From: an uncultured Oscillospiraceae bacterium
GTDB lineage: Bacteria; Bacillota; Clostridia; Oscillospirales; Oscillospiraceae
Direction: 5' to 3'
DNA: 40,542 nt
Assembly (NCBI GenBank): GCA_947625045.1
Contig: CANQMW010000026.1
Coordinates: 1 to 40,542 of the forward strand
The position numbers and the translations under genes were made by a program. This document shows positions 2,281 to 31,716 of this stretch, piece after piece (positions within the stretch are counted from its first letter, which is position 1; each line of letters begins with the position of its first letter). The notes below the pieces were generated by a model. The model did not search any database. It was given only the letters and a program-made list of their open reading frames with translations, and was not told the DNA's origin.

Positions 2281-2397
2281 AAAGCCTCCCCTGTGCAAGG
2301 GGGAGGTGCCGAGCGAAGCGAGGCGGAGGGGTTGTAAAACAATCCCTCAGTCACCGCCTAACGGCGGCGACAGCCCCCTTTGCACAAGGGGGCCTTT
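2281..2397 (+). repeat. modular palindromic intergenic element R1
   Basis: In order: left end (AAAGCCTCCCCTGTGCAAGG, itself partly palindromic), a hairpin built on GAGCGAAGCGAGGC, the core GGGGTTGT-AAA-ACAATCCC, CAGT, a hairpin ACCGCC..GGCGGC, and the right end (CCCCCTTTGCACAAGGGGGC). The halves can fold into one long arm. It lies just past the SH3 gene stop, between two convergent genes. This copy has the shortest apex, AAA. R2-R5 share the ends and core. Confidence 0.9.
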
Positions 2398-2409
2398 ATC
2401 CCAAACGAA

Positions 2410-2444
2410 TAAAAAGGTGGCGGGCTGCATTCGTGCGGCCCGCC
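2410..2444 (-). terminator. Rho-independent terminator of the mutS-EFR1 transcript
   Basis: GGCGGGC (2419-2425) pairs with GCCCGCC (2438-2444), and the stem extends inward by four more pairs around a four-base loop. Read on the minus strand the stem is followed by CACC and then TTTTTATTCG. It is downstream of the EFR1 stop at 2584. Confidence 0.85.
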
Positions 2445-2583
2445 AAAGCATAGGGTTGTGGGATAAAGATATGAGCCGGGCCCTCCGGGACCCATTGGAT
2501 AAGCTGTACCTAGAGGATAACCCCTTTGCCCGGCTTTGTAAAGAGCGAGAAAGCACTACTTTTGTCGAGGGCACATTTTTCTC

Positions 2584-3402
2584 TCACAGGAAAAAGGCGC
2601 TCTCCGCCCGCCGGGCATAGTTCGCCATGAGCATCGCCCGGTGGGACAGAAAATCCCCGTCGTCAAAATATCTGGCCCCCGCCGGGCACAGCCTGATGCA
2701 GGCCTGGCACTTGATGCACACGCCCGTGGTCACCGCAGGGTCTTTGGGGGCTACGGACCCCATGGGGCACATCTTCGCGCAGGTGCCGCAGCGGGTGCAT
2801 TTTTCCATGTCCGTCCTGGGCACGGCCTTCAAAAACTTCGCGGGCGCCCCATCGGCCCGCAGGGGCGTATAATATCTCTCCGGCGGCATGACGCCCGGCA
2901 CGGTCTTGAGGGCCGGGCCGTTTTTTTGCGCCTTTTTCGCCAGGGCTTCCCCGAAGGCGGCCAGCGCCGCCAGGTCCGCCTCATCGGGCCGGCCCGTGCC
3001 CAGGGTGGGGGCAAAGCTGTGCTCCGTGGCCACCGCCGCCGCGCCCAGCACCGTGAAGCCGTTGTCCTTCGCCAGCATGTATAGCTCCGCCAGGGCGTCA
3101 TCAAAGGCCCGATTGCCGAAGCACACCGCCGCCCCGCACAGGGCGCCGTTTCCATAGATGTGGTCCCGGATATAGGGCATGAGCTTGTTGGGCACCCGCC
3201 CGGCGTACACCGGCGTGGCCAGGATGACCAGGTCCCCCGGCCCGAAGACCATCTCCACGGTCCGGGCCTGTGGCAGGGTGAAGTCTATGCTCTCAAAGGG
3301 CAGGCACATGGCCTTTGCCGCCGCATGGCCTATGGCCTCCGCCGCGGTCTTCACGTTGCCGCAGGGGCTGAAATAGGCAGCATATACCCGCTCCACGGTC
3401 AT
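2584..3402 (-). CDS. EFR1-type flavodoxin/ferredoxin protein
   Basis: A 272-residue predicted electron-transfer protein. The N-terminal half is flavodoxin-like (YFSPCGNVKTAAEAI phosphate loop, then VFGPGDLVILATPVYAGRVP). The C-terminal third has two complete [4Fe-4S] motifs: CTRCGTCAKMCP and CIKCQACIRLCP. It should bind FMN and two clusters and move low-potential electrons, as expected in an anaerobe. The ATG at 3402 overlaps the mutS stop in ATGA with GGAGG just before it, so translation is coupled to mutS. Reading further upstream only enters mutS in another frame. The partner is unknown; a functional tie to mismatch repair is not implied by the family. Confidence 0.85.
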   Translation of the reverse strand: MTVERVYAAYFSPCGNVKTAAEAIGHAAAKAMCLPFESIDFTLPQARTVEMVFGPGDLVILATPVYAGRVPNKLMPYIRDHIYGNGALCGAAVCFGNRAFDDALAELYMLAKDNGFTVLGAAAVATEHSFAPTLGTGRPDEADLAALAAFGEALAKKAQKNGPALKTVPGVMPPERYYTPLRADGAPAKFLKAVPRTDMEKCTRCGTCAKMCPMGSVAPKDPAVTTGVCIKCQACIRLCPAGARYFDDGDFLSHRAMLMANYARRAESAFFL

Positions 3403-5972
3403 CCCTCCGCCTTCTTCTTCAGCTGGTACAAAAGGTTCAGGGCCTCCAGAGGCGTGACGGTGTTGAGGTCCAGGTCCTGCAGCTCCCTGGCCAGCTCCCC
3501 GCCGGCCATGTCCAGCATGGACACCTGGTCCGGCGCGGGGCCCGACGCGGGCATGCTCCCCCCGGTCCCCTCCGATTCCAGCTCCGTAAGATACTGCTTC
3601 GCTTTTTTGATCACCGGGTCGGGCACGCCCGCCAGCTTCGCCACCTCGATGCCGTAGCTGTCGTCGGCGGCGCCGGGGACGATCTTCCGGAGGAAGATGA
3701 GGGTGCCCCCCTGCTTTTTGGCGGTGATATTGTAGTTCTTTACCCCGTCCAGGGTCCCCTCCAAAGCGGAGAGCTCGTGGTAGTGGGTGGCGAACATGGT
3801 CCGGGCCCCCAGCTTTCGCTTGTCGGCGCAGTATTCCAGCATGGCCCGGGCGATGGCCATGCCGTCGAAGGTGGAGGTGCCCCGGCCGATCTCGTCCAGG
3901 ATGAGAAGGCTCGCCCCCGTGGCGTGGCGGAGGATATCCGCCATCTCCGCCATCTCCACCATGAAGGTGGACTGGCCGCTGGCCAGGTCGTCGGAGGCGC
4001 CGATGCGGGTGAACACCCGGTCCACGATGCCCACGGAGGCGCTCTTCGCCGGGACGAAAGAGCCCATCTGGGCCATGAGCACGATGAGGGCCGTCTGGCG
4101 CATATAGGTGGATTTTCCCGCCATGTTGGGGCCGGTTATGATGGCGACCCGGTCGGTCGTGTCGTTCAGGAAGGTATCGTTGGGCACGAACAGGACGTTC
4201 TTCTGGGCCTGCTCCACCACCGGGTGGCGGCCCTCCGTGATGCGGATGGACCGGCCCACGTCCACCTCCGGGCAGACATAGCGGTTTTTGACCGCCACTT
4301 CCGCGAGAGAGCACAGCGCGTCCAGCTCCGCCGCCTTCGCCGCCGCGGCCTGGACCCGCTCCACCTGCCCGGCCACCCGGACCCGCAGGGCGGAGAAAAG
4401 CTCATACTCCCGCTCCGCCAGCTTGTCCTTCGCTCCCAGGAGGGTGTTTTCCAGGTCCTTGAGCTCCGGGGTGAAGTACCGCTCGTTGCTGACAAGCGTC
4501 TGCTTTCGTATGTAGTCCTCCGGCAGGGGCGCGTCCCCGGCAGACCGGGGCACGTCGATATAGTAGCCGAAGACCTTGTTGTAGCCCACCTTCAGTTTCT
4601 TGATGCCCGTGCGCTCCCGCTCCCGGGCCTCCAAAGCCACCACCATGCCGGCGCCATTGTCCCGCACGTCCCGGAGCCGGTCCACCTCCTCGTCCGCCCC
4701 GGGCCGGAGGATGCCACCCTCCCGGACGGAGAAGGGCGGCTCGTCGCCGATGATGGTCATAATGTCGTCCCGGAGGTCGTCCAGGGTGTCCAGGGCGGCG
4801 ATGTCCTTGAGGGCCCCGCTGCGGGCGCCGGAGAGCAGCTCCGCCAGGCGGGGCAGCTTTCCGAAATAGGTCCCCAGGGCCAGCAGGTCCCGGCCGTTGG
4901 CGGTGCCGTAGACGCACCGGCCTATGAGCCGCTGGATGTCCCCGATGTCCCGCAGGGTCAATATGAGCTCCGGCCGGAGGATGGCGTCGGAATATAGCTC
5001 CTCCACGGCGGAGAGCCGCCGCCTAATGGCCACCGGGTCCAGCAAGGGCCGCTCCACCCAGGAGCGCAAAAGCCGCCCGCCCATGGGGGTCTTGGTCCTG
5101 TCCAGCACCCAGAGAAGGCTCCCCCGCTTTTCCCCGGTGCGCAGGTTCTCCGTGAGCTCCAGGTTCCGGCGGGTGGTGTAGTCAAGCTCCATGTACCGCC
5201 CCGGGCCGAACCGGTCCAGCCGGCGGATATGGGAGATATCGAACTTCTGCGTCTCGATGATGTAGCTCAAAAGCGCCCCCGCCGCCAGTGTCTCCGCCGG
5301 GGTGATGACCTCGCCGAAGCGGTCGTAGACCAGCTTGCGGCAGGCATTGGGCTCGAAGCGGCCCGCCTCCTTTTCGGGAAGGCAGTCCAGCTTCTGCAAA
5401 AAGGCGGCGACGGTCTCATTTTTCTCCGCCCCGGCGGAGAGCACCGCCTCCCGGGGGGAGAACCGGCCCAGTTCGTTCACCATGTGCCCGGCGGCCTCGG
5501 CGGAAAAGCCCTGGACGCAGAACTCCCCCGTGGAGATGTCGCAGAAGGCTGCGGCCCCCTCGTCCCCCTCCAGCCACAGGGCGCAGAGGTAGTTGGATTT
5601 GCCCTCCTCCAGCATGGAGCTGTCCGTCACCGTGCCGGGGGTGATGATGCGGATGACGCCCCGGTCCACCAGCCCCGTGGCGGCGGCGGGGTCCTCCAGC
5701 TGCTCGCATATGGCAACTTTGTACCCCTTGGCGATGAGCCGGGCGATATAGGCCTCGCTGGAGTGGAAGGGCACGCCGCACATGGGGGTCTGCTCTTCCT
5801 CCGGCTTGCCCCTGTCCCGGGTGGTCAGGGCCAGGTCCAGCTCTTTGGAGACCAGCTTCGCGTCCTCGTCGAACATCTCATAAAAATCGCCCAGGCGGAA
5901 AAAGAGCAGGCAATCGGGGCACTGCTCTTTTATCTTGTAGTACTGCCGCTTCATGGGGGTCATCTCAGCCAT
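3399..5972 (-). CDS. mutS: DNA mismatch repair protein MutS
   Basis: An 857-residue MutS1, full length. It recognises mismatched or looped bases as a dimer and signals to MutL using ATP. The mismatch-wedge motif is F30-Y31-E32 (RLGDFYEMF). The Walker A GPNMAGKST and Walker B LLILDEIGRGTSTFDG lie in the C-terminal ATPase, followed by ATHYHEL. The protein ends with the helix-turn-helix and LYQLKKKAEG tail. I chose the ATG at 5972 (MAEMTPMKRQ) because it matches the usual N-terminus and has AGAGGAAA upstream. The frame stays open to 6167, but only through repeat R2. mutS follows the FAH gene on the same strand with R2 in between and is coupled to the EFR1 gene by ATGA. MutL is encoded divergently at 9867. 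Confidence 0.97.
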   Translation of the reverse strand: MAEMTPMKRQYYKIKEQCPDCLLFFRLGDFYEMFDEDAKLVSKELDLALTTRDRGKPEEEQTPMCGVPFHSSEAYIARLIAKGYKVAICEQLEDPAAATGLVDRGVIRIITPGTVTDSSMLEEGKSNYLCALWLEGDEGAAAFCDISTGEFCVQGFSAEAAGHMVNELGRFSPREAVLSAGAEKNETVAAFLQKLDCLPEKEAGRFEPNACRKLVYDRFGEVITPAETLAAGALLSYIIETQKFDISHIRRLDRFGPGRYMELDYTTRRNLELTENLRTGEKRGSLLWVLDRTKTPMGGRLLRSWVERPLLDPVAIRRRLSAVEELYSDAILRPELILTLRDIGDIQRLIGRCVYGTANGRDLLALGTYFGKLPRLAELLSGARSGALKDIAALDTLDDLRDDIMTIIGDEPPFSVREGGILRPGADEEVDRLRDVRDNGAGMVVALEARERERTGIKKLKVGYNKVFGYYIDVPRSAGDAPLPEDYIRKQTLVSNERYFTPELKDLENTLLGAKDKLAEREYELFSALRVRVAGQVERVQAAAAKAAELDALCSLAEVAVKNRYVCPEVDVGRSIRITEGRHPVVEQAQKNVLFVPNDTFLNDTTDRVAIITGPNMAGKSTYMRQTALIVLMAQMGSFVPAKSASVGIVDRVFTRIGASDDLASGQSTFMVEMAEMADILRHATGASLLILDEIGRGTSTFDGMAIARAMLEYCADKRKLGARTMFATHYHELSALEGTLDGVKNYNITAKKQGGTLIFLRKIVPGAADDSYGIEVAKLAGVPDPVIKKAKQYLTELESEGTGGSMPASGPAPDQVSMLDMAGGELARELQDLDLNTVTPLEALNLLYQLKKKAEG

Positions 5973-5997
5973 GATATGTTTCCTCTCTATCCATATA

Positions 5998-6141
5998 GGC
6001 TCCCTTGTGCAAAGGGAGCTGGCTCCGGCGTCAGCCGGAGACTGAGGGATTGTTACCAAGCCAGGTAGAATTCCAAGACTGGTAACAACCCCTCCGAGCG
6101 CCGCAGGCGGCGCCCACCTCCCCTTGCACAGGGGAGGCTTT
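5998..6141 (-). repeat. modular palindromic intergenic element R2
   Basis: Minus orientation. Same ends and core as R1, but the first hairpin is GCGCCGCC..GGCGC and the second is CTCCGGC..GCCGGAG. The apex carries a 31-base insert bounded by TTACCA and TGGTAA, which shares all but one base with R5. It lies between the FAH stop (6177) and the mutS start (5972), so it would be transcribed into RNA ahead of mutS. Confidence 0.9.
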
Positions 6142-6176
6142 AGGGCGGCGAGGCCGCCCTGGCACATGTCAGGTTT

Positions 6177-7025
6177 TTACTTCACCGTATTTCTCAGCAC
6201 GCCGATCTTCTCTATCTCGCACTCCACCGTGTCGCCGGGCTTTAAGAACCTGGGCGGGTCGAAGCCCATGCCCACCCCGGCGGGGGTGCCGGTGGCGATG
6301 ACGGTCCCCGGCAGCAGGGTCATGCCCGCGGAGAGCTCCGCGATGGTGTCAGCGACGCTGGTAATGAGCTGGTCCGTGACCGCGCTCTGGCGCGGTTCGC
6401 CGTTCACCCGGGCAGAGATGCGCAGCGCCGGGGGGAAGGCCACCTCGTCGGCGGTGAGGATGCAGGGGCCCATGGGGGTGAAGCCGTCCAGGCCCTTGCC
6501 GTAATACCACTGCTTGTGGGCAGTCTGCAGCGTCCGGGCGGACACGTCGTTCAGCACCGTGTAGCCGAACACATATTCCCCCGCCTTTTCCGCCGGCACC
6601 TGCTTTGCCGCGGGGCCGATGACGACCGCCAGCTCCGCCTCATAGTCCAGCTTCTCCACCAGACCCGGGTGGCTGTCGATATAGCCCTCCGGAGCCACCG
6701 CCTCCGGCACCCGCTTGGAGAAGTAGACGGCCACGGGCTTGTCCTTGGCGAAGGCCTCGCCATTGAACTTGGCGGCCTCTTTGGCGTGGTCTACGTAGTT
6801 CATGCCGAGGCATATCACGTCCTGCCGGGGCCGGGGGATGGGGGCCAGGAGCGTCACGCTCTCCAGCGGCACCTCCGCCCCCAGGGGCGCGGCATTCACC
6901 GCGTCCAGCCCCGCCTCGACGGCGGACACCATGTCGGCATAGGGCAGGGGCCGCACCGCCTTCTCATCCGCGGTGAGCGTGCCCACCTTTTCCTGTCCGT
7001 CTTCCAGGTATGTCACCAGCTTCAT
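6177..7025 (-). CDS. fumarylacetoacetate hydrolase (FAH) family protein
   Basis: 282 residues, the usual size for the FAHD1/5-carboxymethyl-2-hydroxymuconate isomerase/2-oxopent-4-enoate hydratase branch. Members are metal-dependent and act on acylpyruvate-like or oxaloacetate-like substrates. Visible landmarks are LGMNYVDHAKEA, the metal-binding DYEAELAVVIG segment, YTVLNDVSAR, KGLDGFTPMGP and the GTVIATGTPAGVGMG loop. The ATG at 7025 has AGGAGGAGACAT upstream. It sits 10 bases after the NUDIX gene in the miaB-GNAT-NUDIX-FAH run. The substrate is not determinable; oxaloacetate decarboxylase or acylpyruvase activity is a reasonable first guess, as for FAHD1-like enzymes. Confidence 0.88.
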   Translation of the reverse strand: MKLVTYLEDGQEKVGTLTADEKAVRPLPYADMVSAVEAGLDAVNAAPLGAEVPLESVTLLAPIPRPRQDVICLGMNYVDHAKEAAKFNGEAFAKDKPVAVYFSKRVPEAVAPEGYIDSHPGLVEKLDYEAELAVVIGPAAKQVPAEKAGEYVFGYTVLNDVSARTLQTAHKQWYYGKGLDGFTPMGPCILTADEVAFPPALRISARVNGEPRQSAVTDQLITSVADTIAELSAGMTLLPGTVIATGTPAGVGMGFDPPRFLKPGDTVECEIEKIGVLRNTVK

Positions 7026-7035
7026 ATGTCTCCTC

Positions 7036-7656: not shown

Positions 7657-7658
7657 GC

Positions 7659-8183
7659 TCACTCCTCCAGCCGCTTTTCCAGCAGCATCAGCCGGATGCC
7701 CTCCAGGCCGTTGAAGGTACAGGGGGCCACGGATATCTCCCCGAAGCCCAGCTTGTGGTAGAGCCGACGGGCGGCGGTGTTGCGCTCGTTGGTGTCGATG
7801 CGAAGATAGGGGCACCCGTGGGCCCGGGCGTAGTCCTCATAATACTGCACAAAGGCCGTGGCGCAGCCCCGGCCCCGGGCGGCGGGGTGGATGGCCAGGG
7901 TGTGCAGCACCATGACCTCCTCATCCTTCGCGGGATACCGCCAGGGCGCCCCGGCGTACACATCCACCTGAAGCTGGTTGACGACGCCCATGCCCAGGAT
8001 GGCGCCGTCCTCTTCCAGGACGTACAGGTCGTCCCGGGAAAGAGCTTGCTCCGCCGTGGCCCGGGTGGGGTAGATAGCCCGCTTCCAGCCCGTGGTGGTG
8101 AGGCCCGCCTCCTCGGCGTCATGGACGGCGGAGAGGAGTTTTTCCACACCGCCTATATCGCTTTGTACCGCTTTTCGTATCAT
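7659..8183 (-). CDS. GNAT family N-acetyltransferase
   Basis: 174 residues, one GNAT domain. It opens MIRKAVQSDIGGVEKLL, typical of the fold's first strand and helix. The acetyl-CoA pyrophosphate loop is RGRGCATAFV (Q/R-x-x-G-x-G/A). The C-terminal NERNTAARRLYHKLGF segment is typical of small-molecule or protein-N-terminus acetylases. The ATG at 8183 overlaps the miaB stop (ATGA), so it is translationally coupled to miaB and then to the NUDIX gene. The target is unknown. Its position among tRNA-modification and repair genes does not define one. Confidence 0.87.
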   Translation of the reverse strand: MIRKAVQSDIGGVEKLLSAVHDAEEAGLTTTGWKRAIYPTRATAEQALSRDDLYVLEEDGAILGMGVVNQLQVDVYAGAPWRYPAKDEEVMVLHTLAIHPAARGRGCATAFVQYYEDYARAHGCPYLRIDTNERNTAARRLYHKLGFGEISVAPCTFNGLEGIRLMLLEKRLEE

Positions 8184-9601
8184 ACCGTCTCCCCGTACAG
8201 CGCCCAGGTGGTGCTGTCCGTTATTTTTACGTCGATGAACTGTCCGACCAGGGACTTGTCTCCGGCCAGGTGCACCAGCCGGCCGCCCTTGGTACGGGAG
8301 GAGAGGTTATAGGGGCTCTGCCCCGTCTCGCCGTCCACCAGCACCCGCACCGTTTGGCCCACATAGGCCGCGTGCTTTTCCCCGGATATGCGGTTCGATA
8401 GGTCCAGGAGCTTGTCGAACCACACCTGCTTCTCCGCCCTCGTCACCGGGTCGGGCATGGACGCCGCCGGGGTGCCGGCGCGGGGGGAGAAGATGAAGGT
8501 GAACATGGCGTCGTATTTGACTTCCTCCACCAGGGAGAGGGTGTCGTTGAAGTCTTCCTCCGTCTCCCCGGGGAAGCCCACGATGATGTCCGTGGTCAGC
8601 ACCAGGTCCGGCATGTATTTGCGCGCGGCGGCCACCTTTTCCAGGTATTTCGCCCGGTCGTAGTGCCGGTTCATCTCCTTGAGGATGCGGTCCGAGCCGG
8701 ACTGGAGGGGCAGGTGGATATGGTGGGCGCAGTGCTGGCTCTCCCCCATGACCTTGAAGAGCTTTTCTGTGGCGTCCTTGGGGTGGCTGGTCATGAACCG
8801 CAGCACATAGTCGCCGGGTATCTTATCAAGCTCCGCCAAGAGGTCCGGGAAGTCCACGCCCTCTTCCAAACCCTTGCCGTAGCTGTTCACGTTCTGGCCC
8901 AGGAGGGTGATGTCCTTATATCCAGCCTCTACCAAGGCTTTCGCCTCGGCTATGACGTCTCCGGGCCGGCGGCTCCGCTCCCGGCCCCGGACGTAGGGCA
9001 CGATGCAGTAGGAGCAGAAGTTGTCGCAGCCGTTCATGATGGAGAGCCACGCCTTCACGGCGCTGTCCCGCGCCCGGGGCAGGCCCTCCGCCACCACGCC
9101 CTCGCTGGGCTCCGCGGCGATGAGGCGGCGCTTTCCGCCCCGGCGGTGCCGACGCTCCATGGCGGATAAGAGCAGCTCCGGGAACTGCCACAGCTCATGG
9201 GGCCCGAAGGCCAGGTCCACCACCTGGTAGGAGTTTTTGATCTTCTCCCGCATCACGGGCTGCTGGGTCATGCACCCGCCCACGCACACGATGAGGTCGG
9301 GGTTCTTCGCCTTTTTGTGGTTCAGGGCGCCCACGTTCCCCAGCACCCGCTTTTCCGCGTGCTCCCGCACGGCGCAGGTGTTCACGGCGATGAGGTCGGC
9401 CCTGTCCTCGTCGTCAGTGAGCGCATAGCCGCACTGGGTGAGCCAGCCTCGGAGTATCTCGCTGTCGGACTCGTTCTGCTGGCAGCCGTAGGTGTCCACC
9501 AGGGCATAGTGGGGCCGGTGGGCGATGAGGGTGCGTATCTTCTGGCAGTACTGCTCCTGCTGGAGCCGTTCCTGGGTGGTGATCTCCCGGCGCTGGTACA
9601 T
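8180..9601 (-). CDS. miaB: tRNA-2-methylthio-N6-dimethylallyladenosine synthase MiaB
   Basis: 473 residues, a full-length radical-SAM methylthiotransferase that adds the 2-methylthio group to i6A37 of tRNAs reading UNN codons. Cys 40, 76 and 110 (DTYGCQQNESDSE, NTCAVREHAEKR, GGCMTQQ) hold the auxiliary [4Fe-4S] cluster. C192-x3-C196-x2-C199 holds the radical-SAM cluster. A TRAM domain ends the protein. The 30-residue N-terminal leader is usual for MiaB. The ATG at 9601 has GGAGAA upstream. The open frame continues through R3, but that extension is not protein-like. It heads the minus-strand run, and its substrate-making partner MiaA is encoded at 11696 on the other side of the shared promoter. 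Confidence 0.96.
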   Translation of the reverse strand: MYQRREITTQERLQQEQYCQKIRTLIAHRPHYALVDTYGCQQNESDSEILRGWLTQCGYALTDDEDRADLIAVNTCAVREHAEKRVLGNVGALNHKKAKNPDLIVCVGGCMTQQPVMREKIKNSYQVVDLAFGPHELWQFPELLLSAMERRHRRGGKRRLIAAEPSEGVVAEGLPRARDSAVKAWLSIMNGCDNFCSYCIVPYVRGRERSRRPGDVIAEAKALVEAGYKDITLLGQNVNSYGKGLEEGVDFPDLLAELDKIPGDYVLRFMTSHPKDATEKLFKVMGESQHCAHHIHLPLQSGSDRILKEMNRHYDRAKYLEKVAAARKYMPDLVLTTDIIVGFPGETEEDFNDTLSLVEEVKYDAMFTFIFSPRAGTPAASMPDPVTRAEKQVWFDKLLDLSNRISGEKHAAYVGQTVRVLVDGETGQSPYNLSSRTKGGRLVHLAGDKSLVGQFIDVKITDSTTWALYGETV

Positions 9602-9626: not shown

Positions 9627-9754
9627 GGCGCCCTTGTGCAAAGGGAGCTGTCGCCGCCGTCAGGCGGTGACTGAGGGATTGTCGCGTTACGGACGTTCAC
9701 AACCCCTCCGTCGCGGCTTCGCCGCGCCACCTCCCCTTGCACAGGGGAGGCTTT
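9627..9754 (-). repeat. modular palindromic intergenic element R3
   Basis: Minus orientation, 26 bases upstream of miaB. Ends and core are as in R1. The first hairpin is CGCGGC..GCCGCG, and the second (ACCGCCTGACGGCGGC) differs from R1 by one base. The apex insert is GAACGTCCGTAACGCG, almost the same as in R4. The outer right end is altered (GGCGCCC rather than GGCTCCC). Given the miaB promoter position, R3 would be transcribed in the miaB leader. Confidence 0.9.
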
Positions 9755-9866: not shown

Positions 9867-11690
9867 ATGGCAGTCATCAACGTCCTCTCCCCCCACGTGG
9901 CGGATATGATCGCCGCCGGCGAGGTGGTGGAGCGGCCCGGCAGCGTGGTCAAAGAGCTCATGGAAAACGCCCTGGACGCCGGGGCGAAGAACGTGACCGT
10001 GGAGCTCACCGGCGGCGGGGCCACCTATATCCGCGTCACCGACGACGGCTGCGGCATGGCCCCGGACGACGCGGGCAACTGCTTTCTGCGCCACGCCACC
10101 TCGAAGCTCCACGATGAGCGGGGCCTGGAGGCCATCGAGACCATGGGCTTCCGGGGCGAGGCGCTGGCGGCCATCTCCGCCGTGAGCCGGGTGGAGCTGC
10201 TGACCCGCCGGCCCCAGGACGGGGAGGGCACCTATGTGTCCGTGGCCGCCGGGGACATCCAGGACATGCACGCCGCGGGCTGCCCCCGGGGCACTGTGTT
10301 CACCGTCCGGGACATCTTCTACAACACCCCGGCCCGGCTCAAGTTCATGAAGTCCGACCGGGCCGAGGGGTCTTACTGCGTCCAGCAGGCCGCCCGGGTG
10401 GCCCTGGGCCGGCCCGACGTGTCCGTGCGGTGCGTGAAGGACGGCAAGGAGGAATTCTTCACCCCCGGGGACGGGAAGGCCGAGTCCGCCCTCTACGCCA
10501 TCCTGGGCCGGGACACGGCCCTTTCCATGCTCCCCGCGGAGGGGGAGAACGAGGGCGTGGCCGTGACCGGCTTCATAAGCTCCCCCGCCGCCGGCCGGGG
10601 CAACCGGGCCACGCAGTTTTTCTTCGTGAACGGCCGGTCCATCCGCTCCCAGAGTATGCAGGCTGCCCTGGAGCAGGCCTATAAAAACACGCTGATGGTG
10701 GGGAAGTTCCCCGCCTGCGTGCTATACATCACCCTGAGCCCCGGGGCGGTGGACGTGAACGTCCACCCCACGAAAAACGAGGTCAAATTCTCCGCGGAGA
10801 AGCGGGTGTTCGACGCGGTGCACTATAGCTGCGTCAGCGCCCTGCAGGGGGAGCGGGACACGCTTCAAATGCGCCTTTCCCCCGCCACGGAGAAGAAGCT
10901 CTCCCCCCAGGCGCCGCCCCGGCAGGAGACGCCCAAAAAGGAGCCGCCCCGGCAGATGACCATGGAGCTGCACAGCCCCCCGCCCGCCTACGGCACCGGC
11001 GCGTCGGTGGTCTATGCCCCCCGGCCCGCCCCGGCGCCCACCCGCCGGCCGGCATACCAGGCCCCTGTGCGCAAAGCGCCCACGCCCATGCCCCAGCCGG
11101 AGCCCACGCCCGCACCTAAGGCAGAAAACGATACCCCCGTCCGGGTGGCGGGGGAGGTGCTGCGCACCTACATTGTGGCGGAGCAGGGAGAGAAGATCTA
11201 TCTCATCGACAAGCACGCTGCCCACGAGCGGATGAATTTTGACGCCCTCAAGGCCCGGGGCCGGGAGATCATGAGCCAGACCCTTCTGGAGCCCCAGACC
11301 TGGCGGCCCGGCCCGGAGGACCGGGAGGCGCTGGCGGAAAACGGGGAACTTCTCAGGGAGATGGGCTTCGAGCTGGAGCCCTACGGGGACGAGGACGTGG
11401 TCATCCGGGCCGTGCCGGAGGGCATGGACCCGGGCCAGGTCGTGGCCGCCCTGGAGGAGATAGGCGAAAAGCTCCGTACCGGGGCGAGGGACCTTGCCCG
11501 GGACAGCATACTGCAGACCATCGCCTGCAAGGCCGCCGTGAAGGCGGGTTGGGATACGGACCCCATGGAGCTGCAGGTCCTGGCGGAGAAGGTGGCCTCC
11601 GGGGAGATCAAATACTGCCCCCACGGCCGGCCCGTGGCGGTGACGCTTACCAAGAAGGAGCTGGACCGGCAGTTCGGCCGCATCCAGTGA
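9867..11690 (+). CDS. mutL: DNA mismatch repair protein MutL
   Basis: 607 residues. The N-terminal GHKL ATPase is complete: E30 and N34 (KELMENALDAGA), DDGCGM, GFRGEALAAI. Then come the transducer domain, a Pro-rich linker at about residues 345-425, and the C-terminal dimerisation/endonuclease domain. The nuclease motif near residue 447 reads DKHAAHERMNFD against the usual DQHA-x2-E-x4-E, with Q to K and the last E to D. ACKAAVKAG and CPHGRP are present, so a metal-dependent nicking MutL, as in non-MutH bacteria, is likely. The ATG at 9867 has AAGGAG 8 bases upstream. It leads mutL-miaA(-hfq), diverging from miaB. Confidence 0.96.
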   Translation: MAVINVLSPHVADMIAAGEVVERPGSVVKELMENALDAGAKNVTVELTGGGATYIRVTDDGCGMAPDDAGNCFLRHATSKLHDERGLEAIETMGFRGEALAAISAVSRVELLTRRPQDGEGTYVSVAAGDIQDMHAAGCPRGTVFTVRDIFYNTPARLKFMKSDRAEGSYCVQQAARVALGRPDVSVRCVKDGKEEFFTPGDGKAESALYAILGRDTALSMLPAEGENEGVAVTGFISSPAAGRGNRATQFFFVNGRSIRSQSMQAALEQAYKNTLMVGKFPACVLYITLSPGAVDVNVHPTKNEVKFSAEKRVFDAVHYSCVSALQGERDTLQMRLSPATEKKLSPQAPPRQETPKKEPPRQMTMELHSPPPAYGTGASVVYAPRPAPAPTRRPAYQAPVRKAPTPMPQPEPTPAPKAENDTPVRVAGEVLRTYIVAEQGEKIYLIDKHAAHERMNFDALKARGREIMSQTLLEPQTWRPGPEDREALAENGELLREMGFELEPYGDEDVVIRAVPEGMDPGQVVAALEEIGEKLRTGARDLARDSILQTIACKAAVKAGWDTDPMELQVLAEKVASGEIKYCPHGRPVAVTLTKKELDRQFGRIQ

Positions 11691-19511: not shown

Positions 19512-20504
19512 GTGATCTATGCGATCGCTGCCGTGGTGGTCCTGATACTGGACCAGGCGGTGAAATACTGGACCATCAACCACATCCCCTTGAACGCCAT
19601 GGGCGAGCAGTGCGTGAGCCTGATCCCCGGGGTGCTGCACATGACCAACGTGCAGAACACCGGCGCGGCCTTCAGCATCCTGGCCAACGCCAGGTGGCTG
19701 CTCATCGGGGTGTCGGCCCTGTTCATCATCGCCATCATCGTGCTCATCAACACGGAGATCATCCGCACCAAATTCGGCCGCTGGACGGCCGTGCTGGTGG
19801 CCGCCGGCGCCCTGGGCAACTGCATCGACAGGGTGCTGTTCGGCTACGTGGTGGACATGTTCGAGTTCGAGATCTTCTCTTTCTTCGTGTTCAACGTGGC
19901 GGACATCTTCATCACCGTATGCGGGCTGCTGTTCTGCATCCACGTCATCGTCTACCGGGACCCCATGGAGCTGCCCAAGGAGAAAAAGCGCCGGCCTGCC
20001 AAGGCAAAACCGGCCCGCCGCCGTCAGCCCCGCCGGTCCGAGCTGGACATGGAGGAGGCCGCTTACTACAAGGACGAGGAACCTGCGGCTGAGCCTGCGC
20101 CTGAGCAGCCCCAGAGCCGCCGGGCCGCCCGTCAGGCCGCGCGGCAGGCCAAAGAGGACATGTACGCCGCCATCCCCCACCGGGACCGGGGCGAGCACAA
20201 GTCCCTGGCCGACGAGCTGCGGCCCGCCGATCCGGACGACCCCTTCGCCGAGTGGACCTTCGGCGGCGGGAAGGAAAAGGAAACGCCCGCCCCCAAGGCG
20301 GAAACGCCCGCGCCCGCGGCGCCTGAAAAGCCCGTGAAGGCTGCACCCGCGGAGAAGGCCCCGGAGGCCAAGCCTGCGCCCGTCCAGGCGGAGACGCCCA
20401 AACAGGAGGCCCCCAAGGCTGCCCCGGCCAAAAAGCCGGACCTGGACCAGGGCTTTGACGCCTATTCCCTGGACGACATTCTGGCTGAGTTCCGGGACAG
20501 CTGA
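19512..20504 (+). CDS. lspA: lipoprotein signal peptidase LspA with long C-terminal extension
   Basis: 330 residues, about twice the usual 150-170. Residues 1-150 are a normal four-helix LspA that cuts the signal peptide from diacylglyceryl-modified prolipoproteins. They include VQNTGAAFSI and the two catalytic aspartates in GNCIDRVLFGYVVDMF and NVADIFI. Residues 155-330 form a cytoplasmic-looking tail: basic (KKRRPAKAKPARRRQPRR), then acidic, then a Pro/Ala/Lys repeat, ending FDAYSLDDILAEFRDS. The start is GTG with CAGGAGGTATCC upstream. It overlaps rluD by one base. Tail function is unknown. Lgt at 25121 acts just before LspA in the pathway. Confidence 0.93.
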   Translation: MIYAIAAVVVLILDQAVKYWTINHIPLNAMGEQCVSLIPGVLHMTNVQNTGAAFSILANARWLLIGVSALFIIAIIVLINTEIIRTKFGRWTAVLVAAGALGNCIDRVLFGYVVDMFEFEIFSFFVFNVADIFITVCGLLFCIHVIVYRDPMELPKEKKRRPAKAKPARRRQPRRSELDMEEAAYYKDEEPAAEPAPEQPQSRRAARQAARQAKEDMYAAIPHRDRGEHKSLADELRPADPDDPFAEWTFGGGKEKETPAPKAETPAPAAPEKPVKAAPAEKAPEAKPAPVQAETPKQEAPKAAPAKKPDLDQGFDAYSLDDILAEFRDS

Positions 20505-21418
20505 TGGAAACGAGAATAACGGTAAAGACAGAGGAGAGCGGGGAGAGGATCGACGCTCTCCTCGCCTGTCAGGAGGCCATCCGCAGCCGCTCCGCCGCGG
20601 CGAAGCTTTTGGAAGCGGGTCTCGTGACCCTTCACGGCGCGCCTGTGCGGAAGAATCACCGTGCCGCCGCCGGGGACATATTCGAGGTAGTATTGCCCGA
20701 GGCCGCCCCGGCCAAGGCCGCGGCCCAGGACATCCCTCTGGACGTGGTCTATGAGGACGGAGACGTGATCGTGGTGAACAAGCCCCGGGGCCTGGTGGTC
20801 CATCCCGCCCCCGGCCACCCGGACGGCACGCTGGTGAACGCCCTCTTGGCCCACTGCGGGAATTCTCTCTCCGGGGTGGGAGGCGAGCTGCGGCCCGGCA
20901 TCGTCCACCGCATCGACAAGGACACCAGCGGCCTCATCATCGCCGCGAAGAATGACGCCGCCCATGAGGCCCTGTCCGCCCAATTGAAGGACCGGACCCT
21001 CTCCCGGGTCTACGACGCGGTGTGCCACGGCACGTTCCATGACGACGCGGGCACCGTGGACGCCCCCATCGGCCGGGACCCCCGGAACCGCCAGCGCATG
21101 GCCGTGACGGAGAAGAACTCCCGCCCCGCCGTGACCCACTGGCAGGTGCTGGCCCGGTACGCCCGCCACACCTATATCCGCTGCCGCCTGGAGACGGGCC
21201 GGACCCACCAGATACGGGTCCACATGGCCCACACAGGCCACCCCCTGCTGGGGGACACGGTCTACGGCGGCCGCCGGGACAAGGGGCTGGAGAGCCAGTG
21301 CCTCCACGCCCGGGGGCTCAAATTCATCCACCCCGCCACCGGCCAGCCCATCGAGCTCTGGACCGACCTGCCCGGCTGGTTCCAGGAGGTCTTGAGCAAA
21401 CTGGGGCCGGAGATATAA
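20504..21418 (+). CDS. rluD: RluA/RluD-family 23S rRNA pseudouridine synthase
   Basis: 304 residues. An N-terminal S4 RNA-binding domain (about residues 13-60, RIDALLACQEAIRSRSAAAKLLEAGLV split) precedes the catalytic domain with the nucleophile D138 in HRIDKDTSGL. VNKPRGLVVHPAPGH and RLETGRTHQIRVHMAH are present. Length and order fit RluD-type enzymes that modify large-subunit rRNA. The exact target (RluD versus another RluA paralogue) is inferred from the lspA-adjacent position. The ATG overlaps the lspA stop (TGATG). Confidence 0.92.
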   Translation: METRITVKTEESGERIDALLACQEAIRSRSAAAKLLEAGLVTLHGAPVRKNHRAAAGDIFEVVLPEAAPAKAAAQDIPLDVVYEDGDVIVVNKPRGLVVHPAPGHPDGTLVNALLAHCGNSLSGVGGELRPGIVHRIDKDTSGLIIAAKNDAAHEALSAQLKDRTLSRVYDAVCHGTFHDDAGTVDAPIGRDPRNRQRMAVTEKNSRPAVTHWQVLARYARHTYIRCRLETGRTHQIRVHMAHTGHPLLGDTVYGGRRDKGLESQCLHARGLKFIHPATGQPIELWTDLPGWFQEVLSKLGPEI

Positions 21419-21420
21419 AA

Positions 21421-21457
21421 TGCCTCCCCTGTGCAAGGGGAGGTGCCGAGCGAAACT
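21421..21457 (+). repeat. left-end fragment of the R element (outer R4 remnant)
   Basis: TGCCTCCCCTGTGCAAGGGG followed by AGGTGCCGAGCGAA, which is the left end and the start of the R1-type hairpin, then breaks off into unrelated C-rich sequence. It lies 3 bases after the rluD stop. Confidence 0.8.
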
Positions 21458-21467
21458 CCCACCCCAA

Positions 21468-21587
21468 TGCCTCCCCTGTGCAAGGGGAGGGGGACCGCGC
21501 GAAGCGCGGTGGAGGGGTTGTAAACGTCCGTAACGCGACAATCCCTCAGTCAGCTTCGCTGACAGCTCCCTTTGCACAAGGGAGCCT
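21468..21587 (+). repeat. modular palindromic intergenic element R4
   Basis: A full plus-orientation copy: left end, hairpin ACCGCGC..GCGCGGT, core with apex insert AAACGTCCGTAACGCG (nearly the same as R3), CAGT, a short hairpin CAGC-TTCG-CTGACAG, and the right end CTCCCTTTGCACAAGGGAGC. It is flanked on both sides by fragments of another copy. Confidence 0.9.
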
Positions 21588-21597
21588 CCAAAAGGTA

Positions 21598-21621
21598 AGC
21601 CTCCTTTGCACAAGGGGGCCT
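21598..21621 (+). repeat. right-end fragment of the R element (outer R4 remnant)
   Basis: AGCCTCCTTTGCACAAGGGG followed by GCCT, a right-end module without a core. The ribosome site of the next gene (AAGAGGAG) starts directly after it. Confidence 0.8.
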
Positions 21622-21638: not shown

Positions 21639-23558
21639 ATGCCCGCACTTGTCGTATATATGCTCTTTGGCCTGGCCCTGGCCTGGCGCCTGCTGCCCTC
21701 TTACCGGGGGGCGGTGAAGTGCTGGCTGGGGCTGGTGTTCGGCTGTGCGGCACTGATGTGGCTGCCCTGCCTCATCGCCTTCTTCGCGGGCTTCACCATG
21801 ACGGCGCAGCTGATCGCCCTGTGCCTCGCCACCGTGGGCACGGTGTGCCTGCTGCTCATTGGGAAGGACTATAACCTGCCCCAACCGGCGGAGGGCGGGC
21901 ATCTTCCCTCTCTGCCGGCCATGCCCGCCCCGCCCCTGGAGGATGCGGCGGGTGCGCTGGCGAGCCTTCTGCTCACCGCCTTTTGCGGGTATCTTCTCTA
22001 CACCCATGTACTGCTGCCCCACACCGACGGCTCCCTCTGGGTGGGCCAGAGCACCTACGGGGACTTAGGCATGCACCTGGGCTTTGCCGAGAGCCTCTAC
22101 CGCCAGGGGGACTTCCCCCCGGACTACAGCATCTTCCCCGGTCAGAAGATAGACTATCCCTTCCTGGTGGACGCCGCCACGGCCAGCCTGCGGTTTTTCG
22201 GGCTGGGCCTGCGCATGGCGGTGATACTGCCCAGCCTCGTCATGCTCTTCGCGGTATTTTACGGCTTCTGGCTTTTGGCGGCGGAGCTTACGAAAAAGCT
22301 CGCCCCCACCCTTCTGGCCTGGCTCCTCTTCGTCTTCAACGGCGGGTTCGGCTTCGCCCTTTTCTTCAACGGCCGGTACACCTTCACCGACCTGCTCACG
22401 GGCTTTTACGTCACCCCCACCAACCTGGTTGACGAGGACCTTCGGTGGGTGAACGTGATCTGCGACATGCTCATCCCCCAGCGCACCACCATGGCCGGCT
22501 GGTGCATGGTCCTGGCGGCCATATACCTGCTGCTCCAGGGCATCCGAAAGACCCTGGACGGGGCGGGCTGCCGCCGGGAGATACTGGTCCTCGCGGGGCT
22601 GGCGGGGCTCATGCCCATGATACATACCCACAGCTTCCTGGCGTTGGGCATGCTCTCGGCGGGATGGTTCTTCGCCTTCCTGCCGAAAGCCAAAAAGGCG
22701 GGGCGCTTAAAGGCGCTGGTCATGAATTACGTGCTCTACGGGTGCGTGTGCTTTGCCCTCGCCCTGCCCCAGCTCATCGTCTGGACCTTCGACGCGGCCA
22801 GCACGGGCAATCTCCTCTGGCTCAACCCCGGCTGGGTCCACGGTGAGATGAACTGGCTGTGGTTCTGGATGGTGAACTGCGGGGTGGTGTTCTGCGCCAT
22901 GCTGGTGGCCATGTTCTTCCTGCGGGGGGACGATGCCCGCATATTCTGGGGCGCGGCGCCGCTCTTCATCCTGGCGAACCTCGTGGCCTTCCAGCCCAAC
23001 CCCTACGACGACAACAAACTTCTTTATATATGGTACATGGTGACGGACATCGCCGTGTGCGGATGGCTGTGGGAGCAGATGGAGAAGATAAGGCCCCGGG
23101 CCCTCGCCAAGGGCGCGGCAGCGGTGCTGGTCATCTGCGGCACCCTCTCCGGGTGCATGAGCCTTCTGCGGGAGGCGGTGAGCGAGTACCAGCTCCTTTC
23201 CGGCGAGCAGGTCGCCGCCGCGGACTACATCATCGAAAACACCCCGGCGGACAGCCTCTTCCTCACCACCTCGCACCACACCAACCCCGTCTCCGTCCTC
23301 ACCGGGCGGAACATCCTGTGCGGAGCGGGGATGTATCTTTACTACCACGGCATCGACTACGGCGAGCGGGAGGCCCTGCTGCCGCTGATGTACGCCGGCG
23401 GGGCGGATTTTGAGCGGTACGCCCAGGAATACGGCGTGGACTATGTATACATCGGCGGCTCGGAATACGCCGAATACCCGGTGAACTACGACTATTTCGC
23501 AGAAAACTATCCCCTGGTCTACGACCAGGGCGGCGTCAGCATCTTCCAAATCCCGTGA
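21639..23558 (+). CDS. large polytopic membrane protein, GT-C glycosyltransferase-like
   Basis: 639 residues with roughly 11-13 predicted hydrophobic helices and a soluble C-terminal portion (about residues 515-639). The segment GQSTYGDLGMHLGFAESLYRQG after the first helices has an acidic residue in the loop position used by GT-C enzymes, which take sugars from polyprenyl-phosphate donors. The C-terminus (AADYIIENTPADSLFLTTSHH..GVDYVYIGGSEY) resembles the small periplasmic domain of such proteins. The exact family is not recognised. AAGAGGAG supports the ATG at 21639. A lipoprotein and a GtrA-like gene follow on the same strand, which suits a cell-surface glycosylation cassette. Confidence 0.65.
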   Translation: MPALVVYMLFGLALAWRLLPSYRGAVKCWLGLVFGCAALMWLPCLIAFFAGFTMTAQLIALCLATVGTVCLLLIGKDYNLPQPAEGGHLPSLPAMPAPPLEDAAGALASLLLTAFCGYLLYTHVLLPHTDGSLWVGQSTYGDLGMHLGFAESLYRQGDFPPDYSIFPGQKIDYPFLVDAATASLRFFGLGLRMAVILPSLVMLFAVFYGFWLLAAELTKKLAPTLLAWLLFVFNGGFGFALFFNGRYTFTDLLTGFYVTPTNLVDEDLRWVNVICDMLIPQRTTMAGWCMVLAAIYLLLQGIRKTLDGAGCRREILVLAGLAGLMPMIHTHSFLALGMLSAGWFFAFLPKAKKAGRLKALVMNYVLYGCVCFALALPQLIVWTFDAASTGNLLWLNPGWVHGEMNWLWFWMVNCGVVFCAMLVAMFFLRGDDARIFWGAAPLFILANLVAFQPNPYDDNKLLYIWYMVTDIAVCGWLWEQMEKIRPRALAKGAAAVLVICGTLSGCMSLLREAVSEYQLLSGEQVAAADYIIENTPADSLFLTTSHHTNPVSVLTGRNILCGAGMYLYYHGIDYGEREALLPLMYAGGADFERYAQEYGVDYVYIGGSEYAEYPVNYDYFAENYPLVYDQGGVSIFQIP

Positions 23559-24489: not shown

Positions 24490-24493
24490 GGAC

Positions 24494-24534
24494 AAAGAAG
24501 TATCCCCCGCCTGCGGGCGGGGGATACTTCTTTT
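24494..24534. terminator. bidirectional terminator between convergent genes
   Basis: A perfect 18-bp inverted repeat (24494-24511/24516-24533) with loop TGCG. Its outer AAAGAAG/CTTCTTT arms provide U-runs in both directions. It serves the GtrA transcript (plus) and the lgt/coiled-coil transcript (minus). Confidence 0.92.
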
Positions 24535-24542
24535 ACGCTGTC

Positions 24543-25085: not shown

Positions 25086-25120
25086 TGTGTAAGTCCTCCT
25101 TTTACGTTTTTCTCTATAGT

Positions 25121-28559: not shown

Positions 28560-28589
28560 CCCGCTCACCTCTTCATATATACTATTGTC

Positions 28590-28618
28590 ATTATAGCACA
28601 GGCCGGGGGCTTTGAAAA
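28590..28618 (-). promoter_or_regulatory. promoter of ymfF-ymfH-lgt
   Basis: On the minus strand: extended -10 TGC-TATAAT (TATAAT at 28590-28595) with a weak TTTTCA at 17 bases (28613-28618). It diverges from the sugar kinase gene. Confidence 0.6.
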
Positions 28619-28676
28619 TGACATTATTGTAAATTCCGGGCCCGGGCCGGTCATTTTTGCCAAAAAATACGGGCAA

Positions 28677-28777
28677 AAATCACGAAATATTCCCAAGGCC
28701 CTTGCAATTTATTGTGAGATATGCAAAAATGGGCATGATACCGGCCGCCCCGGCGGCCCTGATGCGTGAGGTGACAT
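28677..28777 (+). promoter_or_regulatory. upstream region of the sugar kinase gene
   Basis: An A/T-rich stretch with TTGCA (28703) and TGCAA (28723) as a spaced inverted repeat, and weak promoter-like hexamers (TTGTGA, 16 bases, CATGAT). No confident promoter or riboswitch. A GAGGTGACAT ribosome site leads to the ATG at 28778. Confidence 0.25.
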
Positions 28778-29863: not shown

Positions 29864-29885
29864 CGAAAATATATAGGATGACCGC

Positions 29886-29914
29886 GGGAGTGGACATAAG
29901 TCCACTCCCTTTTT
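29886..29914 (+). terminator. Rho-independent terminator of the sugar kinase gene
   Basis: GGGAGTGGAC and GTCCACTCCC, a 10-bp stem with loop ATAA, followed directly by TTTTT. Confidence 0.92.
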
Positions 29915-29954
29915 ATGATTTAAAAGAGAAAAGGCGTTTTTTCTCAAAAAAGTA

Positions 29955-29983
29955 TTGATTTTTCGGGGGATAGGGTTTATAAT
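29955..29983 (+). promoter_or_regulatory. promoter of the secreted protein gene
   Basis: TTGATT (29955-29960), 17-base spacer, TATAAT (29978-29983). AGCAGGAGG lies just ahead of the ATG at 30043. Confidence 0.75.
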
Positions 29984-30042
29984 GACACGAGTTTCGGCTC
30001 ATAGGTTGTGTAAAATTATTTATTTTAGCAGGAGGAAAAAAC

Positions 30043-31383
30043 ATGAAAAAGCGTGCATTGAGCCTGTTCCTGGCTTTCATCATGACGCTGAGCCTGACAG
30101 TTCCCGCCCTCGCGGCGCCTGAAGCTCCGGCGGGCCTGGAGGAGCTGGAGGAGTTCGTAGACGTGCCCATGGCCGTAGCCGCGGCGAACGAACCGGACGG
30201 CTCGAAAGACAATCCTTACGTTGTCTCTAACAGTACTGCGCTGCAAGGCAAACTGGGTGTCGCTGTTGATGGTAAGGACATGTATATCAGGGTGGTTAAT
30301 AGAGCCCCGGCCGCGATGGCCATCGACAACACTACCACTGTTAATGTCTCGCGGGGCAATATCTTCATCAGCGTTGCGGCGAACAACACGCTGACTGCCG
30401 ACTTCAACGTGCAGGGTGGCACTGTGGTATTGTGGCTGGGCAGCAATAACGCAGATACCGGCACCTTCTCTTATACTACGGCGCTGGGTAAAGTCTCAAT
30501 CAACGACGGCGTGAAGTTCAGCAAGTCTCTGGCCGGCCAGAGCAATATAACAGGCTACCAGGCCGAGAGCAGCGGGACTTACACGTATTATAAGGAGGCT
30601 GAGAGCGCCCCCAAAGGCAGCACCCTCACGAACATCAGCAACTCCAAGACGGTCTATACGGTCACAGTGACGGATGAGGTGCATTTCAAGGTCGAGCCCA
30701 AGCAGGCCACCGAGGGCGAGACGATCACCGTCACTGCCGACAGCACCTATACGATCGAGTCTGTGACCGTGACGCCGAATGGCACGAAGGTGACTGTCAA
30801 CGCTGGTACTTACACCTTCAAAATGCCCGCCTACAACGTTACAGTCACCGTCACGGTAGTAGAGAAGAGCTCCGGCGGCGGCAGCGGCGGCGGCACCACT
30901 GAGCCCAGCCCCTCTCCCAGCCCGTCCCCGTCCCCGTCCCCGTCTCCCAGCCCCTCTCCCACGCCCGGCGGCGATAAGCCCACGGTCCCCGTGGATCCTC
31001 CCAAGACCAACGGCGGCACCGGCTGGGTCTATGACTACGACACCGGCGAGTGGTACTTCTTCAAGAAGGGCGAAGTCGTCGCCAACTACTGGGTCGGCAA
31101 GGTAGACGGCGCTTCCCAGTGGGACAACAACTGGTACTATGTCGGCTCCGAGGGCAAGATGCTCACCGGCATGCAGTACGTGGACGACCTGCACGGCGGC
31201 TATGGCTGGTACTTCCTGCAGCCCACCGATACCAAGGGTGAGAAGGGCAAGATGCTGACCGGCTGGCAGTGGGTCGGCGGCCAGTACGGCGAGTGCTGGT
31301 TCGAGAAGAAGTCCGGCTCCTCCGGTAAGTGCACTTGGTCCGAGCTCCTGGGCGACTGGAACGGCGCCACCTGGGTCAAGTAA
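30043..31383 (+). CDS. secreted protein with Ser-Pro linker and C-terminal cell-wall-binding-like repeats
   Basis: 446 residues. A signal peptide (about 1-24, cut near ALA-APEA) leads to a beta-rich N-terminal region (about 50-275) of Thr/Val/Asn-rich strands (VNVSRGNIFISVAANNTL, TVTVTDEVHFKVEP) with no recognised family. A (Ser-Pro) repeat and Gly/Ser stretch lie at about 280-315. The C-terminal 120 residues are aromatic/Gly repeats (GEWYFFKKGEVVANYWVG, NNWYYVGSEGKMLTGMQ, GWYFLQPTD..GKMLTGWQW) like choline- or glucan-binding cell-wall repeats. The first 800 bases use more A/T-ending codons than neighbours. It likely sits on the cell surface, and its ligand is unknown. Confidence 0.78.
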   Translation: MKKRALSLFLAFIMTLSLTVPALAAPEAPAGLEELEEFVDVPMAVAAANEPDGSKDNPYVVSNSTALQGKLGVAVDGKDMYIRVVNRAPAAMAIDNTTTVNVSRGNIFISVAANNTLTADFNVQGGTVVLWLGSNNADTGTFSYTTALGKVSINDGVKFSKSLAGQSNITGYQAESSGTYTYYKEAESAPKGSTLTNISNSKTVYTVTVTDEVHFKVEPKQATEGETITVTADSTYTIESVTVTPNGTKVTVNAGTYTFKMPAYNVTVTVTVVEKSSGGGSGGGTTEPSPSPSPSPSPSPSPSPSPTPGGDKPTVPVDPPKTNGGTGWVYDYDTGEWYFFKKGEVVANYWVGKVDGASQWDNNWYYVGSEGKMLTGMQYVDDLHGGYGWYFLQPTDTKGEKGKMLTGWQWVGGQYGECWFEKKSGSSGKCTWSELLGDWNGATWVK

Positions 31384-31411
31384 GATAGCCCCAAACAAGC
31401 AAATACCCCTC

Positions 31412-31441
31412 AGGGAGCAGAGCCTCGGCTCTGCTCCCTTT
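31412..31441 (+). terminator. terminator of the secreted protein gene
   Basis: AGGGAGCAGAGC and GCTCTGCTCCCT, a perfect 12-bp stem around CTCG, followed by TT. Confidence 0.85.
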
Positions 31442-31480
31442 CATATTGCCCTCCTAAGGGGGCTCCGCTTGGCGGCTCCC

Positions 31481-31602
31481 TTGTGCAAAGGGGCCTTTCG
31501 CCTCCTCTGCCAGCCCCCCCAAAGGCCCCCTTGTGCAAAGGGGCCTTTCGCCTCCTCTGCCAGCCCCCCCAAAGGCCCCCTTGTGCAAAGGGGCCTTTCG
31601 CC
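31481..31602. repeat. exact 50-bp tandem repeat joined to R5
   Basis: Units 31481-31530 and 31531-31580 are identical, and the first 22 bases of a third follow. Each unit has one R right-end module (TTGTGCAAAGGGGCCTTTCG) plus a 30-base spacer (CCTCCTCTGCCAGCCCCCCC and AAAGGCCCCC). It looks like duplication of the R5 right end. Confidence 0.95.
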
Positions 31603-31716
31603 GCCGTTAGGCGGTGACTGGGGGATTGTTACCAAGCCAGGTATAATTCCAAGACTGGTAACAACCCCTCCGCCTCGCTTCGCTCGGCACCTCCCCTTGC
31701 ACAGTGGAGGCTTTTT
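31571..31716 (-). repeat. modular palindromic intergenic element R5
   Basis: Minus orientation. The hairpin beside its left end is the GAGCGAAGCGAGGC type of R1, and the other hairpin is the ACCGCC..GGCGGC type of R1 and R3. The apex insert is the TTACCA..TGGTAA type of R2, with one base changed. It thus combines an R1-like body with an R2-like apex. It lies between convergent genes. Confidence 0.9.

Follow-up and report, generated by a model that had tools for sequence, protein, structure and literature searches.

MITEs such as Correia, RUP, and ERIC are intergenic repeats of about 100 to 150 bp with inverted ends, and the double-hairpin elements of fungal mitochondrial DNA are mobile-looking hairpin elements for which we know of no linked nuclease gene; the phrase "double-hairpin elements" returned no paper among the matches listed from the open-access literature. 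In a published account (PMC3733652), REPs are described as palindromic units that occur in inverted pairs, dimers, and clusters and that also flank the gene of a dedicated enzyme, with several families each having a gene of its own. Here, five repeat loci (R1 to R5) were analyzed in a window of 40,542 nucleotides (positions 1 to 40,542 of contig CANQMW010000026.1 from an uncultured Oscillospiraceae bacterium), together with further copies in the host genome and in other genomes. The repeats have the size, intergenic placement, and inverted ends of MITEs but differ in that neither a clear target duplication nor a transposase with the same ends was found, the transposase search being of the Y1 family. 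With the fungal elements they share the appearance of mobile hairpins, the difference being that those reside in an organelle.

The layout is closest to that of the REP/REPIN-RAYT systems (REPtrons) as set out in PMC3733652: here too, dispersed intergenic palindromes occur in inverted pairs, flank an enzyme gene, and fall into several gene-paired families. The parts are of known kinds, namely palindromic repeats with a dedicated enzyme and EDxHD-fold nucleases. The common layout of inverted pairs, dimers, clusters, and repeat-flanked genes would follow if the repeats were REPs or REPINs mobilized by RAYT (a Y1 tyrosine transposase), yet we find this hardly credible, as PF01797 had no match in the host genome (G000, 95% complete) and was detected in two of the six genus genomes with repeats and three of the seven without, and as the sequence beside the hairpins, read by eye, is GAGGGRTTGT or ACAAYCCCTC and not the GTAG or CGTC tag. 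A Y1/RAYT transposase was thus rejected as the partner, being absent from the host genome and uncorrelated with the repeats in the genus, and the REP/RAYT reading is largely refuted. Two further differences are that the enzyme encoded here is modeled as a Vsr/EDxHD-fold nuclease (DUF559) instead of a Y1 transposase and that its gene lies inside the pair, with coding ends that overlap the palindrome. No link between DUF559 and palindromic repeats was found in titles or abstracts among the matches listed from an open-access collection that covers few subscription journals or preprints.

Copies in the window and their spread

The original prediction of five related palindromic loci was borne out in that all five were detected at the predicted places, with scores of 94 to 118 bits, by a covariance model whose training set includes the R4 copy (21469-21586) (Table 1). 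The predicted bounds stood for the loci as such and needed revision in two cases, since R4 is a complete element nested between outer end fragments and R5 is joined by two extra end units. A linker nearly identical to that at 21587..21621 adjoins an element of another genome (L067).

Table 1. Repeat features of the window, with covariance model scores, apices, and neighboring genes
Feature	Position	Strand	Score (bits)	Apex	Neighboring genes and remarks
R1, complete short element	2284..2394	+	111.5		Convergent genes 1251-2240 (+) / 2584-3396 (-); C-end to A-end on +, as DUF559 is oriented in long copies
R1 core	2326-2348	+		AAA
R2, complete short element	5998..6138	-	106.3	31 nt, TACCAAGCC..ACTGGTA	3399-5972 (-) / 6177-7025 (-); 25 nt upstream of the 3399-5972 start codon
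R3, complete short element	9627..9751	-	110.5	16 nt, CGCGTTACGGACGTTC	Divergent genes 8180-9601 (-) / 9867-11690 (+)
Outer C-end fragment and part of H2 arm, left of inner R4	21419..21468	+
R4, complete inner element	21469..21586	+	117.8		20504-21418 (+) / 21639-23558 (+)
Linker and outer A-end fragment, right of inner R4	21587..21621	+
Two extra tandem 50-nt A-end units adjoining R5	31474..31573	-
R5, complete short element	31574..31711	-	94.3	31 nt	Convergent genes 30043-31383 (+) / 31880-38764 (-)

The core pattern GGGRTTGTN{0,30}ACAAYCCC was found at 38 places in the 2.93-Mb host genome (95% complete) and, when read backwards, at none. Many more copies were located by the covariance model, which was built from 38 copies of the host and other genomes and identified at least 68 distinct places (49 of these at ≥91 bits), a lower bound based on the scoring of 150 of 2,074 first-look candidates; all five window copies were among them, and the arms of two DUF559-bearing long copies account for four of the 68. 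The expectation that the family would have other members in the genome was therefore confirmed. Within the genus, the core was present in five of 12 relatives (G001, 21 places; G006, 2; G007, 34; G009, 13; and G012, 22), with no match to the pattern in the other seven.

Beyond the genus, a scan of named genomes placed the repeat mostly in gut Oscillospiraceae and other Clostridia among the matches listed; 12 of the 117 record titles listed belonged to other groups (Arthrobacter, Gemmataceae, Alphaproteobacteria, Bacteroidales, and others), and the remainder to Oscillospiraceae or other Clostridia. Core pattern matches were seen in three Arthrobacter records (L045, L063, and L083). The repeat search of plasmids gave nothing, and that of phages gave a partial DNA match in three records; a DUF559 relative was found in two phage records. 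Among viral contigs, seven had the core and two a DUF559 relative, one of which (L399) lies between palindromic arms; this gene with its arms (L399:3001-3351 and flanks) seems to be set within the loop of a terminator-like hairpin (GGGACAAAAA..TTTTTTGTCC). On a phage contig (L151:6363-6533), a foreign hairpin of about 45 nt splits the A-end hairpin of an element. The letters GAGGGATTGT occur in published papers, according to a text search of the open-access literature.

Anatomy and genomic setting of the element

Each copy consists of five hairpins: two conserved end hairpins, two inner hairpins of varying sequence (H1 and H2), and a core, GAGGGRTTGT..ACAAYCCCTC, that is conserved and encloses an apex that varies. 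Following the orientation of the gene in long copies, the order is C-end hairpin, H2, core GGAGGGGTTGT, apex, core ACAATCCCTC, H1, and A-end hairpin, with terminal inverted repeats at the ends (GGCYCCC..GGGAGGC) and AAA/TTT outside. The loci yielded 191 cores, of which 107 belonged to the A..C type (which reads G..T on the complementary strand), 52 to the A..T type, and 32 to the G..C type; the anatomy set comprised the 62 of the 107 A..C-type copies with both ends matching the pattern, with the other 45 and the 84 cores of other types set aside. The ends and core were nearly invariant across the aligned copies. The intervening hairpins and apex differed, as had been noted originally: H1 and H2 had 38 and 41 distinct sequences, respectively, among the 62 copies, with self-complementarity kept and each of the first eight positions of the stem showing three to five kinds of base pair, such that the paired changes anticipated for the family are indeed kept in the inner stems. 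Swapping halves of H1 and H2 between copies cost a mean of 6.1 and 3.8 kcal/mol, and H1 paired with the H2 of its own copy no better than with that of another; the stems were taken from each sequence's own fold, and the swap is the only one of these results that constitutes a test. Judging from this conservation pattern, the ends and core look to be recognized as sequence and the inner arms as structure.

The proposal that the element folds as one long arm was sustained as a possible fold, but separate end hairpins were supported at least as well. In the ends, just one double compensatory change was seen, at columns 123/139 (C-G in 20, U-A in 17, and other in 1; n = 38); it supports an A-end that folds on itself, and the long-arm pair using column 123 was unpaired in 21 of the 38. 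When modules were typed by simple patterns in 43 copies of the host genome, the A-end, H1, and apex types were linked (p ≤ 0.004), and H2 was independent of the A-end (p = 0.92) and had no significant link to H1 (p = 0.22) or the apex (p = 0.09). This linkage pattern fits an exchange of halves at the core.

Other modules were also seen at the loci. A second kind of long arm, with GGGGTCCCCAAAAGGCA..TGCCTTTTGGGG ends, replaces one arm on the same core (L013, L024, L030, L105, L139, and L194 around 8494); several copies have an additional module, identical or close to GCGCCGCAGGCGCACATTATNGAA, immediately beyond the A-end (L164, L172, L178, L184, and L198); and a repeated terminator-like hairpin with GGCAGGTCTTT adjoins several elements (L007, L008, L009, and L194).

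The description of the element as strictly intergenic was upheld, with all 35 copies for which both neighbors were called by our own simple gene model lying between genes (8 of the 43 were not placed); together with the at least 68 places in the genome, this makes the repeat a high-copy intergenic palindrome, as REPs/REPINs are. In gaps between tandem genes, 20 copies point with transcription and 4 against it (binomial 0.0015), and nine copies lie between convergent genes and two between divergent genes. This arrangement would suit repeats that, however they originated, function today chiefly as structured RNA at the ends of genes (in termination, in 3′-end protection, or as leaders of the gene that follows). 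Such a role is also favored by the sense strand being the more stable in 57 of 62 copies (−74.6 versus −69.5 kcal/mol), in a set chosen for sense-strand G.U cores and thus biased toward the sense strand, and by a T at positions +1, +2, and +3 after the C-end in 84, 87, and 77% of the 62 copies. The latter qualifies the earlier statement that the element has no tight U-run, which holds in that no conserved run extends past +3. However, about three T's are all that is present, the ends and core are kept as sequence and not as structure alone, Rfam gave no match above gathering score in the window, no copy is kept at a syntenic place in aligned relatives (see below), and a nuclease in the apex is left unexplained; we thus hold a mainly RNA-based role to be rather improbable.

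Comparison with relatives in which both flanks could be aligned revealed that R1 was absent in four of four (left flank 65 to 68% alike). Of the three relatives aligned at the R2 site, G003 had no copy, G001 another copy of the family, and G007 a different, longer sequence with a palindromic piece. At the R3 site, six of eight relatives were without any palindrome, and G001 and G012 had palindromes of other families. No copy was kept at the same place in the aligned relatives, the R2-site copy of G001 being a different one. These comparisons show gain or loss of copies, not the step itself. Base-exact empty sites were found neither in the genus nor in related phage contigs, the relatives being too distant, and the ends of the mobile unit are therefore putative. 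For a long copy (L243), the flanks were on separate stretches in relatives and gave no allele pair.

The DUF559 gene of the long copies

Both PF04480 (DUF559) genes of the host genome exactly occupy an element's apex (L243, contig C13; L238, contig C21), giving long copies of about 450 bp in total with a gene of 122 aa, and the covariance model independently placed half-matches on either side of both genes. One core precedes the start codon at Shine-Dalgarno distance, and the core on the other side, together with the inner hairpin, supplies the final codons (..KQSLSQLR). In a sheep gut sequence (L107), the 346 nt between the cores encode a DUF559 protein that shares 64% identity with that of the host genome. 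Among 22 genes of this arm type, as assigned from core motifs, the core serves as the Shine-Dalgarno sequence in 17, the gene ends in the core in 21, and both end hairpins are present by the strict pattern in 15. The median dN/dS was 0.08 across 17 pairs with the overlap codons left out, which shows purifying selection on the gene. At L031 and L244 (genome G015), a DUF559 gene is surrounded by tandem, like-oriented half-units of end hairpin, inner hairpin, and GAGGGGTTGT.

The DUF559 model folds like the homing endonuclease I-Bth0305I and like Vsr, so that DUF559 looks like a homing-type DNA-cutting enzyme of the Vsr/EDxHD fold. Residues E24, D51, E62, D64, H68, and D77 are invariant in 75 DUF559 proteins. 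It has the predicted catalytic fold of I-Bth0305I but differs from this enzyme and from free-standing homing genes in that no intron or intein was seen, and its presumed site, unlike that of a homing endonuclease, would be a palindrome present many times per genome. It differs from the Vsr mismatch endonuclease in that DUF559 genes lie in palindromes. A PADLOC defense search gave weak partial matches only, to DpdF and a type II methyl-directed enzyme.

An element that is MITE-like or REP-like had been proposed originally, and this stands with respect to dispersal, inverted ends, syntenic presence or absence, and the existence of a longer gene-bearing form; the gene with matching ends proved to be DUF559 and not the transposase that had been envisaged. 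The same inverted ends, dispersal, and presence or absence would be expected of ordinary MITEs moved by an unrelated transposase, with DUF559 a passenger or parasite gene settled in some apices. In keeping with this, the gene of L234, with its own core, lies as a cassette inside the apex of another palindrome, the repeats persist without DUF559 in G012 and G006, and the 23 short apices tested showed no sign of deriving from the gene (mean z −0.28), which indicates that the short copies are not simple deletions of a long copy. Nonetheless, we regard the passenger reading as unlikely, given that (i) target-site duplications, to which the original prediction had looked, were not clearly present in 62 copies (best excess 8 versus 3.6 expected, at 2 bp, in 648 settings); (ii) DUF559 is the only gene found between arms, in a search for half-elements that covered the fetched loci, two genomes by core pattern, and the host genome by covariance model, with Y1 as the transposase family searched; and (iii) several nuclease subfamilies each have their own arm type, as described next.

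Of 245 genomes across the order, 75 had a PF04480 match and 21, from 11 families, matched the strict core pattern. A DUF559 match was present in 20 of the 21 repeat genomes versus 55 of the 224 without the repeat (Fisher 1.2e-10, with kinship ignored); exceptions among the repeat genomes were G139, without DUF559, G099, with a fragment, and G179, whose gene has an internal stop. When only the cognate arm type was considered, in the fetched subset of loci, the core was found in 9 of 18 such genomes versus 12 of 227, and no cognate-type gene was found among the loci fetched for 12 of the 21 repeat genomes. Within the genus, G001 and G007 have a gene with this arm type and G009 one with another arm type, and DUF559 was found in none of the seven genomes without repeats. 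Of 101 DUF559 frames, 95 stand-alone genes were retained after three long and three edge frames were dropped. The flanking inverted repeat exceeded the 99th percentile of 45 control genes in 68 of these and did not in 27; only 11 of the 95 exceeded the 99th percentile of flank pairs taken from different DUF559 genes, in which shared arms are common.

Arm types clustered on a tree of 94 DUF559 proteins, with 27 changes versus 55.6 when shuffled, on an alignment that included the C-terminus overlapping the arm and with 28 of the 94 rows having no arm type; all 22 genes with the core described here fell in one supported group of 31. On this phylogenetic evidence, nuclease subfamily is shown to follow arm type. 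A second palindrome family was present in four of nine genomes with a nuclease of its clade versus two of 37 others, or in two of five if only arm-labeled genomes are counted. DUF559 genes were also seen between arms with differing cores, including GGGAGTGA (L242), GAGAGGG (L265), GATGAGG (L236), CACCCGCCG (L239), and GGGGTGG (L245), a variety that suggests there may be more palindrome families than the two examined.

A model for the short copies

Since the short elements share arms with the longer nuclease-bearing element, they are probably small copies of a selfish DNA system. Our favored explanation, which we consider probable, is that R1 to R5 are short noncoding copies of a selfish palindrome whose form of about 450 bp carries the DUF559 nuclease, with cutting and movement as its presumed activities. 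This explanation is supported by the shared arms, the fit of gene and apex, purifying selection, order-wide co-occurrence, the match of arm and subfamily, and syntenic presence or absence. The nuclease would recognize the conserved DNA of the ends and core, which may be extruded into hairpins, and would cut at the core or close to it; with another copy as the repair template, the gene could then be copied into a short palindrome (homing) or one half of the element swapped, and new copies may arise when repair occasionally takes place at new sites, chiefly past the ends of genes. The inner hairpins would need only to fold, so their sequence would drift. The cassette of L234 within the apex of another palindrome fits a homing-like spread. 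However, homing alone does not explain the arrival of short copies at new sites. Also weighing against the explanation are the repeat genomes in which DUF559 was not found (G012, G006, and G139), is broken (G099 and G179), or has arms of another type (G009), the 12 repeat genomes without a cognate-type gene among the loci fetched, the 27 DUF559 genes whose flanks stay within the control range, and the short apices that do not derive from the gene.

More tentatively, and at a strength short of an even chance, the system may represent an undescribed class of mobile element in which palindromes of several hairpins are spread among gut Clostridia by a single nuclease of about 120 aa with the Vsr/EDxHD fold, no transposase or recombinase being involved. 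There would be one palindrome family per nuclease subfamily, the short palindromes would serve as satellites and landing sites, and recutting at the core would reshuffle the halves. We can only guess that the G.T pair of the extruded core stem (in 107 of the 191 cores, the others pairing fully) is one feature read by the Vsr-like enzyme.

With these results, the abundant hairpin repeats of gut Clostridia gain a candidate enzyme, and DUF559, a Pfam family of unknown function, gains a candidate role that is testable because the borders of its own gene predict the DNA substrate. If the explanation is true, a homing-type nuclease spreads dispersed palindromes by a route unlike those of DDE and HUH enzymes and of tyrosine and serine recombinases, and the pairing of subfamily with palindrome would provide a panel of small nucleases for which distinct sites are predicted.
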